Made by a program: the position numbers and the translations under genes. 41,593 bases of DNA from an uncultured Hyphomicrobiales bacterium (GTDB lineage: Bacteria > Pseudomonadota > Alphaproteobacteria > Rhizobiales > Beijerinckiaceae): the NCBI GenBank assembly GCA_903885755.1, contig CAISJZ010000331.1, positions 1-41,593 on the forward strand, in the 5' to 3' direction. The notes beneath the pieces were generated by a model that did no database searches, was not told the DNA's origin, and worked only from the letters and a program-made list of their open reading frames with translations. This document shows, piece after piece, positions 19,745 through 26,230 of this stretch; position 1 is the first letter of the stretch; every line of letters starts with the position of its first letter.

Positions 19745-19854
19745 GGCTCTGGTCCCTCGCGAGATTTCGAGCCCTTGCTAGGATGGAATGTGACGGAAGG
19801 GAAGAGCGGGACATGATTGGCCAAGGCCAGCCAGCAATTCACCCGCGAAAACGC

Positions 19855-19883
19855 CGGGCCCTCGCGCGAGACGCGAAGGCCCG
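19855..19883 (-). terminator. Rho-independent terminator after the HiPIP gene
   Basis: A 12-bp stem (19855-19866 with 19872-19883, one G-T wobble) and 5-nt loop lie 15 bases beyond the HiPIP stop. Read on the minus strand it is followed by GGCGTTTTCGC, a short T run. Confidence 0.6.
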
Positions 19884-19897
19884 AAAATCAATCCTGA

Positions 19898-20167
19898 TCA
19901 GGCTTTGACATAAATCTTGCACCAGCCCTGCGGGCTGATCGCGCCATCGACGCTCTTGCAGGACCCGGGCGCCTCGAAGAGCTTGCAGTTTGAGCAATCC
20001 TGGGCGCCTTTCGGCGAACCTTGATAGCTAACCGCGGCCTGACTCATCTTGGCCGCGCGCGCTGGCGAGGTGGCCAGATCCAGCGCGCAACCCGTCCCTA
20101 CGACGCCCACGAGCGTCCGGAGCGCGGCGCGACGATTAATGCGAACATTGCCGATCTTGAGTTCCAT
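19898..20167 (-). CDS. High-potential iron-sulfur protein (HiPIP)
   Basis: Small periplasmic electron carrier with one [4Fe-4S](3+/2+) cluster, 89 residues before processing. A Tat signal is visible (NRRAALRTLVG, then ATSPARAA as cleavage region). The mature part holds four cysteines, C58, C61, C70 and C83, in the HiPIP pattern C-X2-C-X8-C-X12-C ending GWCKIY. The start at 20167 has AAGGAGA upstream. HiPIPs donate electrons to photosynthetic reaction centres or terminal oxidases, and the Iro-type HiPIP is tied to iron oxidation in Acidithiobacillus. It is divergent from a fused cytochrome-barrel gene with an FNR-type box between them, and a terminator follows it. Confidence 0.93.
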   Translation of the reverse strand: MELKIGNVRINRRAALRTLVGVVGTGCALDLATSPARAAKMSQAAVSYQGSPKGAQDCSNCKLFEAPGSCKSVDGAISPQGWCKIYVKA

Positions 20168-20242
20168 GGAATCTCTCCTTCTCCGCAAGCGCCTCGCGGA
20201 GACCCAACCAAAGCATTCGTTGCATCTTGGCAACGACTGAAA

Positions 20243-20248
20243 AGTATC
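20243..20248 (-). promoter_or_regulatory. Candidate -10 element of the HiPIP promoter
   Basis: On the minus strand GATACT (4 of 6 matches to TATAAT) is centred 30 bases from the centre of the FNR-type box at 20269-20282. That places the box near -41.5, the class II activation geometry. The match is modest. Confidence 0.4.
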
Positions 20249-20268
20249 TGATTTTTCGAGCTTCTGGC

Positions 20269-20282
20269 TTGATCAAAATCAA
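20269..20282. promoter_or_regulatory. FNR/FixK-type box between HiPIP and Cyc2-like genes
   Basis: TTGATCAAAATCAA is a perfect match to the FNR/FixK consensus TTGAT-N4-ATCAA. It lies 102 bases upstream of the HiPIP start and 70 bases upstream of the cytochrome-barrel gene start, so it can serve either or both divergent promoters. Seen directly; the factor that binds it is inferred. Confidence 0.7.
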
Positions 20283-20351
20283 ATCCCGCCCGCGGCATTC
20301 ATGACCACATGAGATCTAGCGCCGAATCGTCATGCGGCGGTCGACGGATGG

Positions 20352-21791
20352 ATGGGGTGCATGATGCTTGGCTTGTCGGAATCCGGTTCAAAAAAAGTTT
20401 TGACGTCGCGCGGCGGAGCCAACGCGCCTCTGGCTCGCGCAACGTCGGCGGTTTCGTCACTCGTCATGCTCGGTTTCATCGCCGCTTTCGCTGTCATTGT
20501 TCCCGAACGCGCTTCGGCCATTCCGAGTTTCGCACGACAGACCGGCCAGCCCTGTGCGGCCTGTCACACCGCGTTTCCCGAACTGACCCCCTTTGGTCGG
20601 CGCTTCAAGCTTGGCGGTTACGTTTTGGGCGGCGGCGACAGCAAGATTCCGCCGGTCGCGGCGATGATCCTGCCCACGTTCACGCATACGAACGCCGCGC
20701 AGGACACTCCGCCGGCGCCGGGAACCCAGACAAACAACAACATCGTTCTCCAGCAGGCGAGCCTGTTCTACGGCGGGCAGATTTACGGCAATCTCGGCGC
20801 CTTCATGCAGGCGACCTATGATCGCGCCTCGGGGCAGTTCTTTCTCGACAATACGGATATTCGCTACACCGATACGTTCAAGCTGTTCGGTCAGGACACG
20901 ATCATCGGCGTGACGGTGAACAACACCCCGACCGTTCAGGATGTCTGGAACACGACTACAGCTTGGGGTTATCCCGAAGTCGGCGCGACGCTCGCGCCAC
21001 AGTTCGCGCCGCCCGGCACCATGCTGGAAGGCAACTTCGCCGGTAAGGTCATTGGCGCGGGCGTCTACGCCTTCTGGAATGACATGCTGTATCTGGAATT
21101 AAGCGGCTATCAGACAATGTCGCCAAAGATGCTGACGACCCTCGGGGAACCGGATGCCGCGACTTCCGACGGAATTCGCGGGATCGCGCCCTACTGGAGG
21201 TTGGCGATTGAACCAACTTGGGGCGAACATTCGTTTATGATCGGCACGTTCGGTATGGCGGCGGACATTTACCCCGGACGTCAGATGACTTTCGGAGTGA
21301 ACCATCTTACGGACATCGGAGTCGACGCGCAGTATCAATACAACGGAGACATGAACAGCCTGACGATCAAGGCGACCAACATTTTCGAGCAGCAGCAGCT
21401 TGGATCATCGTTTCTGCAAATGAACTCGTCCAACTCAACCAATTCTCTGCGTAGTTTCAAGCTGTCGGCTTCTTGGGTTTACGACCACACTTATAGCGCC
21501 TCGGCCGGGTTCTTTGACGTGGCGGGGAGCGCCGATATGAATCTTTACGGCGTCGCCAATGGCGGCAATTCGCTGACCAACTCGCCCAACGGCCAGGGTC
21601 TCGTATTCGATCTCGCCTTCCTGCCGTTCAGTCATGGCGGTCCATCGTTCTGGCCATGGGCGAATGCGCGGATTGGCGTGTCGTATACGCACTATCTGAA
21701 ACTTTACGGAGGCGTGGCCAATTTCGATGGCGCGGGACACAACGCCAGCGATAACAACACGACCTTCGTCTACGCCTGGATCGCATTCTAG
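20352..21791 (+). CDS. Fused monoheme cytochrome c / outer-membrane beta-barrel protein, Cyc2-like
   Basis: The 479-residue product has a Sec signal (about 30-56, ending ERASA), then one c-type haem site CAACH (C68, C71, H72) in FARQTGQPCAACHTAFPELT, then about 390 residues of alternating polar and aromatic strands ending YAWIAF, a terminal aromatic typical of outer-membrane barrels. This is the layout of Cyc2, the outer-membrane Fe(II) oxidase, and of a wider set of uncharacterised porin-cytochromes, so iron oxidation is possible but not shown. The start is uncertain: ATG 20352, 20361 or 20364. It is divergent from the HiPIP gene, which would be a plausible periplasmic electron partner. Confidence 0.8.
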   Translation: MGCMMLGLSESGSKKVLTSRGGANAPLARATSAVSSLVMLGFIAAFAVIVPERASAIPSFARQTGQPCAACHTAFPELTPFGRRFKLGGYVLGGGDSKIPPVAAMILPTFTHTNAAQDTPPAPGTQTNNNIVLQQASLFYGGQIYGNLGAFMQATYDRASGQFFLDNTDIRYTDTFKLFGQDTIIGVTVNNTPTVQDVWNTTTAWGYPEVGATLAPQFAPPGTMLEGNFAGKVIGAGVYAFWNDMLYLELSGYQTMSPKMLTTLGEPDAATSDGIRGIAPYWRLAIEPTWGEHSFMIGTFGMAADIYPGRQMTFGVNHLTDIGVDAQYQYNGDMNSLTIKATNIFEQQQLGSSFLQMNSSNSTNSLRSFKLSASWVYDHTYSASAGFFDVAGSADMNLYGVANGGNSLTNSPNGQGLVFDLAFLPFSHGGPSFWPWANARIGVSYTHYLKLYGGVANFDGAGHNASDNNTTFVYAWIAF

Positions 21792-21799
21792 GAGCAGCG

Positions 21800-21838
21800 T
21801 CGAAACCGTCGGCCAGCGAATCCGGTGGGCGGTTTCGA
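21800..21838. terminator. Possible bidirectional terminator
   Basis: The inverted repeat TCGAAACCG (21800-21808) and CGGTTTCGA (21830-21838), with a 21-base loop, lies between the convergent cytochrome-barrel and porin genes. There is no T run, so support is modest. Confidence 0.35.
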
Positions 21839-21847
21839 GTTCAGCCC

Positions 21848-23401
21848 TCAGAAGGTCCGCTCGATCCGCAACCGTGTCTGCAATATGGTCGAGCCTGGCG
21901 TCCATCCGCCCCAGGCGGCCGGAATTGGGGTGGGGACGCCCGTGCCGCTATTGGCGGGCGAGGTCGCGGACAATGTCTGGTTCAGCCGCTCGTAAACGAC
22001 TTCAAGACCAATATCGAAATCCCGCGATGGCGACCAGATCAGGGAGCCGCCGATCTCCAGACTGGTTGCCGGGCCAAGCCCGCCCAAGGTCCAGTCAATA
22101 TTGCGGGTATTCACGCCCGGCGTCAGGTTGAGATAGGACGCCATCAGGTTAGATCGCAGCGACGCCGACCAGAAATGCGTGAACATGCCGGCGATGGAAT
22201 AGCCCTTCGTCGTCTCGCCCGAAAAACACGCCGCGGTCGCCGTGGCCGGCGCGGCGCAAGCTCCGGCGCTGGATGTCGGGAAAACGTAGAGATCCTTATC
22301 CTGCCGCAACAATCCATTGAATTCGCGGCCTATGTTCCCGGTATGCGCCGAGGTCGATGACGACTGCAACCATTCAAGCGCGCCGTCAGCGTATTCAGCC
22401 GTCAAATGCAGAACATCGCCCGGGGCGATCATCGGCAAATTGATCTTCAGTCCCGCTCCAACCGCCCATCCGGTTTTCGCGATCGTCCCATTGTTCGACG
22501 ATGTCGCGAAATTCGAGACTGCGGTGTTCTGTATCACGCCAGCCATGGCCTGAGCGGCGCCCCACGTCTGATCAAGTCGAAGATTGCCGACCGCCGCGGG
22601 AAGGGCATAAACCCCGTTCGCCCATGGCGTCGTGGTCGCGACCGCGAGAACGCTGGCGCCAGCCGCGGCGCCTGCTGGGCCGATCCATTCGTATCCCACC
22701 GCATTGGCCGCCGTCAGATTTCCACGATCCTCCAACCCGATTGTCGCGGACAGCCCGCCTCCGAACGAAGCGGTATAAGTCAGGACGCCGATCCCGACGG
22801 GAAAACCCGCCCAGCCAAACGAGGCGTAATTCCATGGCGGCATGAATGCAAAGGTCTCGGACGTCGTGCGGCCGAAGGTGAAGCCCGCGAACTGAATGAT
22901 CGCGTTTTCGAGAAACACGTTGTCCTTGCCCGTCTGGCCCGTCACGACGCCGGTCAGGCCATTGTCTCCGTAAAGCCCGGTCTTGATCTCCGGACGAATG
23001 GAAATGAACGTTCGCAAATCGCCCCATGGCGTTCGCGCGCGCGCGTCAAGATCAACGCGCGCACGGGTCAGAAACCCCGTCTGGTCCATCGTCGACCCAG
23101 GCGCGAAAGTGGCGTTCGCGGCTCCCGCCGGCGCGAACCCGCCCGTCGCCGTGGTCTTCTGTGGCGACACAAAAGCGGAAGCCGCTGAATTGATGTAGGC
23201 GTATTCACCGCGACCGCGGCCACCCAAACGCAAACAGATGTCCGCCCCCGGAATCCAGAAATAGCCGGCGCCAAAGGCGTCGCAAACCTTGAGGTATTCG
23301 GCCGCTTCGGCCTTTCGCGACGGAAGTTGGGCGGCCGCGCCAGGCAAGGTTGCGTGCAAAAAGACCGCCGCACAGGGCAGCCCGATCTCGACGCATCGCA
23401 T
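21848..23401 (-). CDS. Outer-membrane porin, Porin_2 family
   Basis: General-diffusion porin of the alphaproteobacterial Porin_2 (Omp2/RopA-like) family, 517 residues. Start 23401 was chosen because AGGGGACA lies just upstream and a signal peptide follows (MRCVEIGLPCAAVFLHATLPGAAAQ in part). The mature N-terminus has the hallmark AEAAEYLKVCDAFGAGYF, IPGADICLRLGG, and the chain ends in a terminal Phe (RLRIERTF), as required for barrel assembly. Two cysteines in the N-terminal signature are usual for this family. It is convergent with the Cyc2-like gene and could supply general permeability for the same envelope, but a functional link is not shown. Confidence 0.92.
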   Translation of the reverse strand: MRCVEIGLPCAAVFLHATLPGAAAQLPSRKAEAAEYLKVCDAFGAGYFWIPGADICLRLGGRGRGEYAYINSAASAFVSPQKTTATGGFAPAGAANATFAPGSTMDQTGFLTRARVDLDARARTPWGDLRTFISIRPEIKTGLYGDNGLTGVVTGQTGKDNVFLENAIIQFAGFTFGRTTSETFAFMPPWNYASFGWAGFPVGIGVLTYTASFGGGLSATIGLEDRGNLTAANAVGYEWIGPAGAAAGASVLAVATTTPWANGVYALPAAVGNLRLDQTWGAAQAMAGVIQNTAVSNFATSSNNGTIAKTGWAVGAGLKINLPMIAPGDVLHLTAEYADGALEWLQSSSTSAHTGNIGREFNGLLRQDKDLYVFPTSSAGACAAPATATAACFSGETTKGYSIAGMFTHFWSASLRSNLMASYLNLTPGVNTRNIDWTLGGLGPATSLEIGGSLIWSPSRDFDIGLEVVYERLNQTLSATSPANSGTGVPTPIPAAWGGWTPGSTILQTRLRIERTF

Positions 23402-23749
23402 TTTGTCCCCTGCCCCAGATTTTTGTATTTTGTCAGCCCCACAGCCTAGGCCAACATCCTCCGCCATTGCAATAGCGCGGAATTCGACGATTTACCAGCG
23501 CGCTACAGATCGTAAAGACACGGCCACGGCCCGGCTTTACAAGTGACGGAAAAAGATAATTACGAATAATCCTTGTGTTTGGCTCAATTCTGGCCCATAT
23601 GTGCAGTCGTCGATAGACGGATAGATGACTTAGACCTTACGCGAGAGACTTTTCGCGTCGCGCCGACACTCTTCTCGCCTGAAAACGCGATTTCGACGGT
23701 CCTCGGCGACGTGGGCAAGCAGTAATCTTTTATCTGGAAGGAGGTTTCC
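23402..23749. promoter_or_regulatory. Divergent porin/cspA intergenic region
   Basis: This 348-base gap holds no convincing gene. It must contain the promoters of the porin (minus) and the cold-shock gene (plus). A weak sigma-70-like pair, TTGTGT (23573-23578) and CATATG (23596-23601), is spaced 17 bases and would leave a leader of about 140 bases before cspA, the kind of long leader common in cold-shock mRNAs. The leader is GC-rich near 23640-23720 and could fold. Confidence 0.35.
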
Positions 23750-24761: not shown

Positions 24762-24775
24762 TTGACTCAAGTCAA
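24762..24775. promoter_or_regulatory. FNR/FixK-type box upstream of doxX-like gene
   Basis: TTGACTCAAGTCAA has perfect TTGAC/GTCAA half sites, a common variant of the FNR/FixK box. Its centre is only 38 bases from the annotated ATG at 24807, which is too close for ordinary class II activation unless the message is almost leaderless, so repression or a different start should be considered. Confidence 0.6.
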
Positions 24776-24806: not shown

Positions 24807-25301
24807 ATGTCTGATCCATCCGTTGAATCTTCCTTCGACCGCTTCGTGATTCTGTTCCTGCGTCTGGCGATGGGCTGGACCTTTCTTTACGCGGGAATTC
24901 ATCATTTCGGCGACGACAAGTTCGTCGCGGGCTTTTTGAGCCACACGAAAACATTCCATGATGTCTACGCGCCGCTCACGAATCCAGCGATCGCGCCAGC
25001 TCTGACTTTTCTCGTTGAATACGGACACCTGTTGATCGGGCTATCGCTTGTCACGGGGTTGGCGGTGCGCGCCAGCGCTCCGTTCGCGATCATGATGATG
25101 CTGCTTTACTGGACCGCGCACATGAACTTCCCCTACATCGAGGACGCCAACAACTACCTCCTCGATTTCCATATCGTTTACGCCGTCATTCTGGTCGTTC
25201 TGATCGTCAAGCGCGCTGGCCATGTCTGGGGCCTTGATGGCCTCGTCAGCAATCTACCGGTGGTTCAGCACAACGCGGGTCTGCGAGCGATCGTGGCCTG
25301 A
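24807..25301 (+). CDS. DoxX-family membrane protein
   Basis: A 164-residue inner-membrane protein with four hydrophobic segments, of the DoxX/DoxD-like family. The N-terminal RLAMGWTFLYAGIHHF and central EYGHLLIGLSLVTGLAVR are family-typical. Relatives include the small subunit of thiosulfate:quinone oxidoreductase and proteins in oxidative-stress complexes, but most are uncharacterised. ATG 24807 follows GAGGG. An FNR/FixK-type box lies 32 bases upstream, suggesting oxygen- or nitric-oxide-linked control. It is convergent with the Crp/Fnr regulator gene. Confidence 0.86.
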   Translation: MSDPSVESSFDRFVILFLRLAMGWTFLYAGIHHFGDDKFVAGFLSHTKTFHDVYAPLTNPAIAPALTFLVEYGHLLIGLSLVTGLAVRASAPFAIMMMLLYWTAHMNFPYIEDANNYLLDFHIVYAVILVVLIVKRAGHVWGLDGLVSNLPVVQHNAGLRAIVA

Positions 25302-25414: not shown

Positions 25415-26131
25415 TTACGCGGGTACGCGGCTTTCGTGGAGAGCCGTTCTCGCGGGCAATTCATTTCCCGAGAGTGTCGCCCAAAGGCGGGAGACACTGG
25501 ACACCGTAATTTCCCGAGCGTCCGTCACGACCCCCCGGTCGCGAAGTTTCGCGAGACATCGAGATAGCGTCGCCTGCTGAATCCCCAGCAATTCCGCGAC
25601 GACCCGCTTGTGATGGGGGATGCGTATCGCGCAGGATTCAAGCCCGTCCGGGCATAGAGACAGGATATATCGCGTCACGCGCTCATCGGCGCTCTGAACC
25701 TTCAGGCCTTCGATCATGTCCATGAGCGCGATGATCTTCTTCTGGGTCTCGCCGAATAGCGCAAGCACCAGTTGAGGCGAAAGATGCAACTCCCGCTTCA
25801 CGACCGACGCCGGAATGCGCGCGACGACAACGTCTCCCACCGCCGACGCGCTTGTCGAGTGGACGCCGCCGCTCAGCGCCAGCGCTTCGGCGATCGTCCG
25901 CCCGGCGGGCAGAATCTGGACAATGGTCTGATCGCCGTTGGATGCCACGCGCACCAGTTTGACGAAGCCCTCGACCACGACGAAAACCGCGCCGACATCA
26001 TCGCCCTGAACGAAAATGGTCTGCCCGTCACGATATTCGTCCTGCCGCGCGGCCTGCCGAAGTCTGTCACGGGTAGAGGCTGGAACCCGAGCAAGGAGCG
26101 GCAAGTCGTTCAGTTTATCAAGCGCCAACAT
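25415..26131 (-). CDS. Crp/Fnr-family transcriptional regulator
   Basis: A 238-residue regulator with an N-terminal cyclic-nucleotide-like sensor domain (about 10-125), a long dimer helix and a C-terminal helix-turn-helix (about 165-225, HHKRVVAELLGIQQATLSRCLAKL). There is no N-terminal cysteine cluster, so it is not an iron-sulfur FNR; it is closer in design to FixK, DNR or NnrR types. In the recognition helix the usual Glu of the FNR 'E-T-x-S-R' motif is Ala (Q-A-T-L-S-R), so binding to TTGAT/TTGAC sites cannot be assumed. ATG 26131 was chosen by domain fit; the ribosome site is weak. Confidence 0.85.
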   Translation of the reverse strand: MLALDKLNDLPLLARVPASTRDRLRQAARQDEYRDGQTIFVQGDDVGAVFVVVEGFVKLVRVASNGDQTIVQILPAGRTIAEALALSGGVHSTSASAVGDVVVARIPASVVKRELHLSPQLVLALFGETQKKIIALMDMIEGLKVQSADERVTRYILSLCPDGLESCAIRIPHHKRVVAELLGIQQATLSRCLAKLRDRGVVTDAREITVSSVSRLWATLSGNELPARTALHESRVPA

Positions 26132-26230
26132 CGAACAATGGGGGTTGACCAATCGATCGACACCATCGCGCCGACGCGTTGGGTCACAATTGATCCCGCG
26201 CAAACAAGACCCGCGACATTTTGGCCGCTG

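Follow-up and report, generated by a model that had tools for sequence, protein, structure and literature searches.

Two genes that lie back to back in an uncultured member of the Beijerinckiaceae, one for a small HiPIP and one for a cytochrome fused to an outer-membrane barrel, raise the question of whether they form a route by which electrons enter the cell from outside. They were found in a window, that is, the whole stretch of DNA that was analysed (41,593 nucleotides), on contig C331 of an assembly of 4.39 Mb in 577 contigs, with a completeness of 92.45% and a contamination of 5.77%. The preliminary description of the window had noted the pair and had interpreted it as a Cyc2-like electron-uptake module; the observation was confirmed and the interpretation is supported by the results given below. 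On balance, and judging from gene content and sequence motifs, we lean towards a role of the pair in taking up electrons at low oxygen, with dissolved Fe(II) as the probable source; the electrons would pass from Cyc2 through the HiPIP to a cbb3 or aa3 oxidase under the control of a FixK/FNR-type switch.

The reading frames bore out the coordinates, the back-to-back arrangement and the 184-base gap given for the two genes (Table 1). That the pair had reached the genome on a misbinned contig was considered and rejected: among 298 genomes of the family, the PheT encoded on the contig had its closest relatives in the window's own genus (86% for G119), the best value in any other genus being 75% (G037). 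This placement backs the membership of the contig in the genome, not that of every gene on the contig. The barrel/HiPIP pair was present in one of 24 genomes (rows counted) of the window's genus and is thus dispensable there. Twelve stretches around pheT from relatives within the genus, several of them short, contained neither barrel nor HiPIP at E 1e-8, a limit that may miss a short HiPIP. The clear orthologous neighbours in these stretches were PheS/PheT, with ECH and DHDPS in a single one (L151); weaker matches to TctC and Rieske proteins were seen in another (L152).

Table 1. Features of the HiPIP/barrel locus, in window coordinates
Feature	Position	Strand	Basis
Gene for a small HiPIP of Iro/PioC type (89 aa) with twin-arginine signal	19898..20167	-	NCBIfam Feoxidase_Iro 4.7e-19 (under cut-off), PioC 6xyv E 3.1e-10, cysteine spacing
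Codons of the four HiPIP cluster cysteines (residues 58, 61, 70, 83), CX2CX8CX12C	19919..19996	-	Translation and pattern; Iro spacing from PMC10654088
Divergent control region common to HiPIP and barrel genes, 184 bases	20168..20351	.	Gap between reading frames
Perfect FixK/FNR-type box TTGATCAAAATCAA	20269..20282	.	One of 8 perfect sites genome-wide
Cyc2-type fused cytochrome-porin gene, 479 aa	20352..21791	+	Reading frame, alignment, signature test
Cyc2 signature AIPSFARQTGQPCAACHTAFPEL; single haem site CAACH at 20553-20567	20517..20585	+	Match to PMC8406198 consensus

The Cyc2 consensus given in PMC8406198 comprises AXPXFAR[Q/K][T/Y] before CXXCH, which is followed four residues on by PXL, with a screening length of at least 365 residues. 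The window barrel agrees with it on every point, having the signature, one CxxCH and 479 residues, in line with the Cyc2 layout proposed earlier, with FARQTG preceding CAACH. The full pattern was found to the letter in 32 of 38 family loci, the other six having one-residue changes such as YARQTG, and in an alignment of 23 homologues the signature segment was conserved, as were positions along the barrel. Searches of Pfam and NCBIfam assigned the protein to no family (best matches E ~0.1). Two AlphaFold runs on four sequences each gave 16 strands both times, at a mean pLDDT of only 42.5 and 44.8, and Foldseek with the first of these low-confidence models listed general porins, among them OprP; a 16-stranded barrel is the likely fold of the Cyc2-type protein according to these models, although no haem plug is visible in them. 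A Porin_2-family gene (21848-23467) lies tail to tail with the barrel gene at a distance of 56 bases and shows no sign of belonging to the module.

Barrel matches were obtained in 41 of the 298 family genomes (weak or fragmentary in three, G038, G118 and G172) and in 12 of 43 genera; the named carriers are Roseiarcus fermentans, Methylocystis sp. KS32, one MAG and a Methylocystis plasmid. Across the phylum, 89 of 398 genomes matched. In 18 the match spanned most of the model; in the remaining 71 it was partial, and these partial matches were mostly N-terminal and mostly from one family (f38), whose sampled proteins have FARQTG or FARKYG ahead of the haem site. Two f38 genomes (G301 and G443) each encode two deeply different barrel types, one with FARQTG and one with FARKYG (L140 and L145; L141 and L146). 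A barrel tree of 77 rows, from which L073, L077, L081, L128, L129, L131 and L132 were omitted, had three deep groups, whose deep joins are unsure owing to long branches. The window barrel fell with alphaproteobacterial and burkholderial homologues and with those on Acidiphilium plasmids.

Of all parts of the proposal, the donor is the least secure. Fe(II) in solution, or a small reductant of similar kind, would pass an electron to the haem, which would be attached to the CAACH site and plug the periplasmic mouth of the barrel. We prefer Fe(II) here because the Cyc2 proteins so far tested are reported to oxidise it and because the authors of that work predicted dissolved Fe(II) as the substrate. 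The donor might instead be a reduced metal other than iron, an organic reductant or another cell, given that the wider barrel family occurs in many genomes not selected for iron oxidation and that function within one Cyc2 cluster is called uncertain in PMC8406198; set against the Fe(II) oxidation by the tested proteins, we consider a donor other than iron rather unlikely.

The HiPIP begins with a twin-arginine start (RINRRAALRTL), in agreement with the predicted Tat export, and its cysteines, CX2CX8CX12C, are spaced like those of the Iro cluster (Cys 24, 27, 36 and 49; PMC10654088). The preliminary description had pointed to HiPIP of the Iro type as a known periplasmic partner in iron oxidation. 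The spacing agrees with that type, but with the NCBIfam iron oxidase model (Feoxidase_Iro, NF041615 equivalog) the score of 68.5 bits (4.7e-19) is well under the cut-off of 100 bits, and the protein is therefore not filed as Iro itself. With Pfam HIPIP it reached 21.3 bits, just under the 22-bit gathering cut-off, and the nearest solved chain was that of PioC. All 28 family HiPIPs encoded within 2 kb of a barrel gene have the Iro/PioC cysteine spacing, preceded in 26 by RRx[FLAVIM]. The HiPIP beside the barrel is the single HiPIP match in the window's genome. At the Roseiarcus fermentans locus (L057, 1774-11272), three HiPIP-matching frames surround one barrel gene.

Both aa3 and cbb3 oxidases are encoded in the window's genome. 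Genome searches gave no match to a photosynthetic reaction centre, the RuBisCO large subunit or the decahaem MtrA/PioA family (TIGR03508), absences which, at a completeness of about 92%, are likely, not certain. No multihaem or other cytochrome c gene was seen adjoining the pair, and one weak c4-like protein is encoded elsewhere in the genome (E 2.5e-11). In the path that we propose, the periplasmic PioC/Iro-type HiPIP would take the electron from the barrel, in the role of c4 (Cyc1) in other Cyc2 systems, and hand it to the cbb3 or aa3 oxidase, either directly or via a c-type cytochrome. As neither the RuBisCO large subunit nor a photosystem was found, the cell would gain energy from respiration, or balance its electrons, without fixing carbon. 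The potentials reported for Cyc2PV-1 (208 mV) and PioC (450 mV), both values from other organisms, fit such a downhill path.

The control region points to a link between the pair and oxygen supply. The FixK box reads TTGA(N6)TCAA, and a box of this kind mediates the control of pioABC by FixK (PMC3050613). Two TTGA-N6-TCAA sites are present in the window, against 0.27 expected, and two were reached in 3 of 100 shuffles. Among 40 homologous loci, the window included, the box was found ahead of the HiPIP/barrel unit in 14, compared with a mean of 0.28 and a maximum of 3 in 300 dinucleotide shuffles of the 40 units. The other 26 units have no box, and the 14 include near relatives (L035 and L036; L055 and L056), so that the independent events are fewer. 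A box occurred in 12 of 25 units with a HiPIP upstream versus 2 of 15 others (p 0.04, kinship ignored). Genome-wide there are eight perfect boxes, compared with none for the reversed control; one lies 84 bases ahead of the start of ccoN (cbb3 oxidase), another at a heavy-metal P-type ATPase gene, and further ones near genes for a PDZ protease, a response regulator and a luciferase-like protein, among others; a functional role for every one of them is not necessary. The shared box suggests that the pair is produced when oxygen is scarce: a FixK/FNR-family regulator binding there would turn on both genes alongside the cbb3 oxidase. Scans for sigma-70 promoters and terminators over positions 19800-22000 gave no match. 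The second window box, TTGACTCAAGTCAA (24762-24775), ends 31 bases before the likely ATG of a DoxX-family gene (24807-25301), which may be a further member of the low-oxygen set to which the pair would belong. A Crp/Fnr-family regulator gene (25415-26203), for which the best NCBIfam match, FtrB, is under cut-off, is situated approximately 4 kb from the pair.

A low-oxygen box would also suit the same proteins working in reverse, with electrons exported to Fe(III) or some other acceptor outside the cell once oxygen is gone, and PMC10715153 links Cyc2 isoforms of acidithiobacilli with the reduction of ferric iron. However, high-potential carriers, to judge from the 450 mV of PioC in another organism, are better suited to uptake toward an oxidase, and the box is common to an oxidase that uses oxygen; we regard outward flow as improbable.

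A partnership of HiPIP and barrel is suggested by the linkage of the two genes within the family. The association exceeds chance: HiPIP matches were obtained in 29 of 41 barrel-positive versus 29 of 257 barrel-negative genomes of the same 298, the tables being compared by eye, and a HiPIP gene lies within 2 kb of the barrel gene in 25 of 38 family loci. The 38 loci exclude L073, which has no CxxCH, and the duplicates L002, L003, L004 and L072 (of L057, L061, L068 and L074) were removed from the locus table. The conserved HiPIP neighbour expected from the preliminary description is thus found within the family but not outside it, where the profile search gave no HiPIP at any of 36 barrel loci sampled; a Caballeronia plasmid barrel from outside the family has an annotated HiPIP gene and a dihaem gene at its locus. 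Likewise, the divergent pairing holds for the window but is not a fixed arrangement, as 10 of the 25 linked loci are co-directional and 15 have the genes on opposite strands, including one (L054) in which the HiPIP gene lies past the end of the barrel gene.

Of the 13 family loci that lack a HiPIP nearby, nine have dihaem genes no more than 2.5 kb from the barrel gene; L070 has neither, and in L038, L048 and L051 a contig end cuts the upstream side. The dihaem genes (approximately 200-250 aa) were collected on the basis of their resemblance to three seeds, and the solved structure nearest to one representative protein was 1h1o, listed as cytochrome c-552, which we take to be the c4 of At. ferrooxidans called Cyc1 or CYC41. 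The Acidithiobacillus-type c4 is a known partner of Cyc2. Among the 31 loci with flanks of 1.5 kb or more on each side (L038, L048, L051, L052, L053, L059 and L066 were omitted for short flanks), 21 have HiPIP only, seven c4 only, two both and one neither, an exclusion with a Fisher p of 1e-4, kinship ignored (3.6e-5 if L072 is added as c4-only). The family tree implies five or six changes in the HiPIP state. In six independent pairs, c4 changed in the opposite direction to HiPIP in three or four and in no case in the same direction (sign-test median p 0.125); with so few independent pairs, p <0.05 is out of reach. With kinship accounted for, the alternation of HiPIP and c4 at the Cyc2 barrel is not significant and no more than suggestive. 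That the two window genes are neighbours and not partners, the HiPIP working in another periplasmic route, as its occurrence in family genomes without a barrel and the variable orientation might imply, is very unlikely in our opinion, since the linkage is kept in both orientations, the sole HiPIP match of the window's genome adjoins the barrel and the loci without HiPIP mostly have c4-like genes instead.

Inward electron flow from Cyc2 to a HiPIP has been proposed before. A Bradyrhizobium Cyc2 cluster is described as containing a HiPIP and three periplasmic cytochromes c, including Cyc1 and CycA1 homologues (Percak-Dennett et al. 2017, cited in PMC5566968). Like the window, it combines a Cyc2 homologue with a neighbouring HiPIP gene in a member of the Rhizobiales, with a proposed inward electron relay, and as this cluster is in print the window pair is a variant of something known; the pair differs from it in the cytochrome c gene, none being seen adjoining, and in the oxygen-type control box. 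With Cyc2-Cyc1 of Acidithiobacillus ferrooxidans the window shares a one-haem barrel with the Cyc2 signature, and family relatives adjoin c4-like genes, whereas in the window a HiPIP takes the place of the c4 gene. The similarity to pioABC of Rhodopseudomonas palustris TIE-1 lies in the small HiPIP, nearest to PioC, and in the TTGA-N6-TCAA box; in contrast to that system, the window has a one-haem fused barrel, not decahaem PioA with PioB, and no reaction centre was found. In a search of the open literature, with subscription papers mostly outside its scope, we came across neither a description of a Cyc2 gene with a FixK/FNR box nor one of HiPIP and c4 alternating as partners of Cyc2.

We tentatively suggest, as a possibility that falls short of our main reading, that the inner half of the Cyc2 system is exchangeable in this family, a FixK-controlled PioC-like HiPIP having repeatedly replaced c4, or been replaced by it, as the direct partner. 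If true, the pair would be a hybrid of Cyc2 and Pio logics, an add-on to the cbb3 oxidase for low-oxygen respiration with iron (or an electrode) in bacteria without RuBisCO or photosynthesis. In relatives of Roseiarcus and Methylocystis, a group in which, to our knowledge, iron oxidation is not commonly expected, the oxygen-type box would link a putative iron oxidase with the cbb3 oxidase. According to PMC10715153 and PMC4725956, it is unresolved or unknown what role HiPIP has in such pathways; with a constant barrel and an alternating neighbour, the family makes this role directly testable by partner swap.

Two plasmid-borne barrels should be mentioned separately. A copy filed under At. ferrooxidans YQ-N3 is not a canonical Cyc2: its barrel protein is letter-identical to that encoded on pACRY03 of Acidiphilium cryptum (L076, L077), and the neighbouring genes are the same; the identity would reflect either plasmid transfer or a mixed culture. 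On plasmid pACMV3 of Acidiphilium multivorum (L081, 5890-7258), the barrel gene is annotated in two pieces and is adjoined by transposases.
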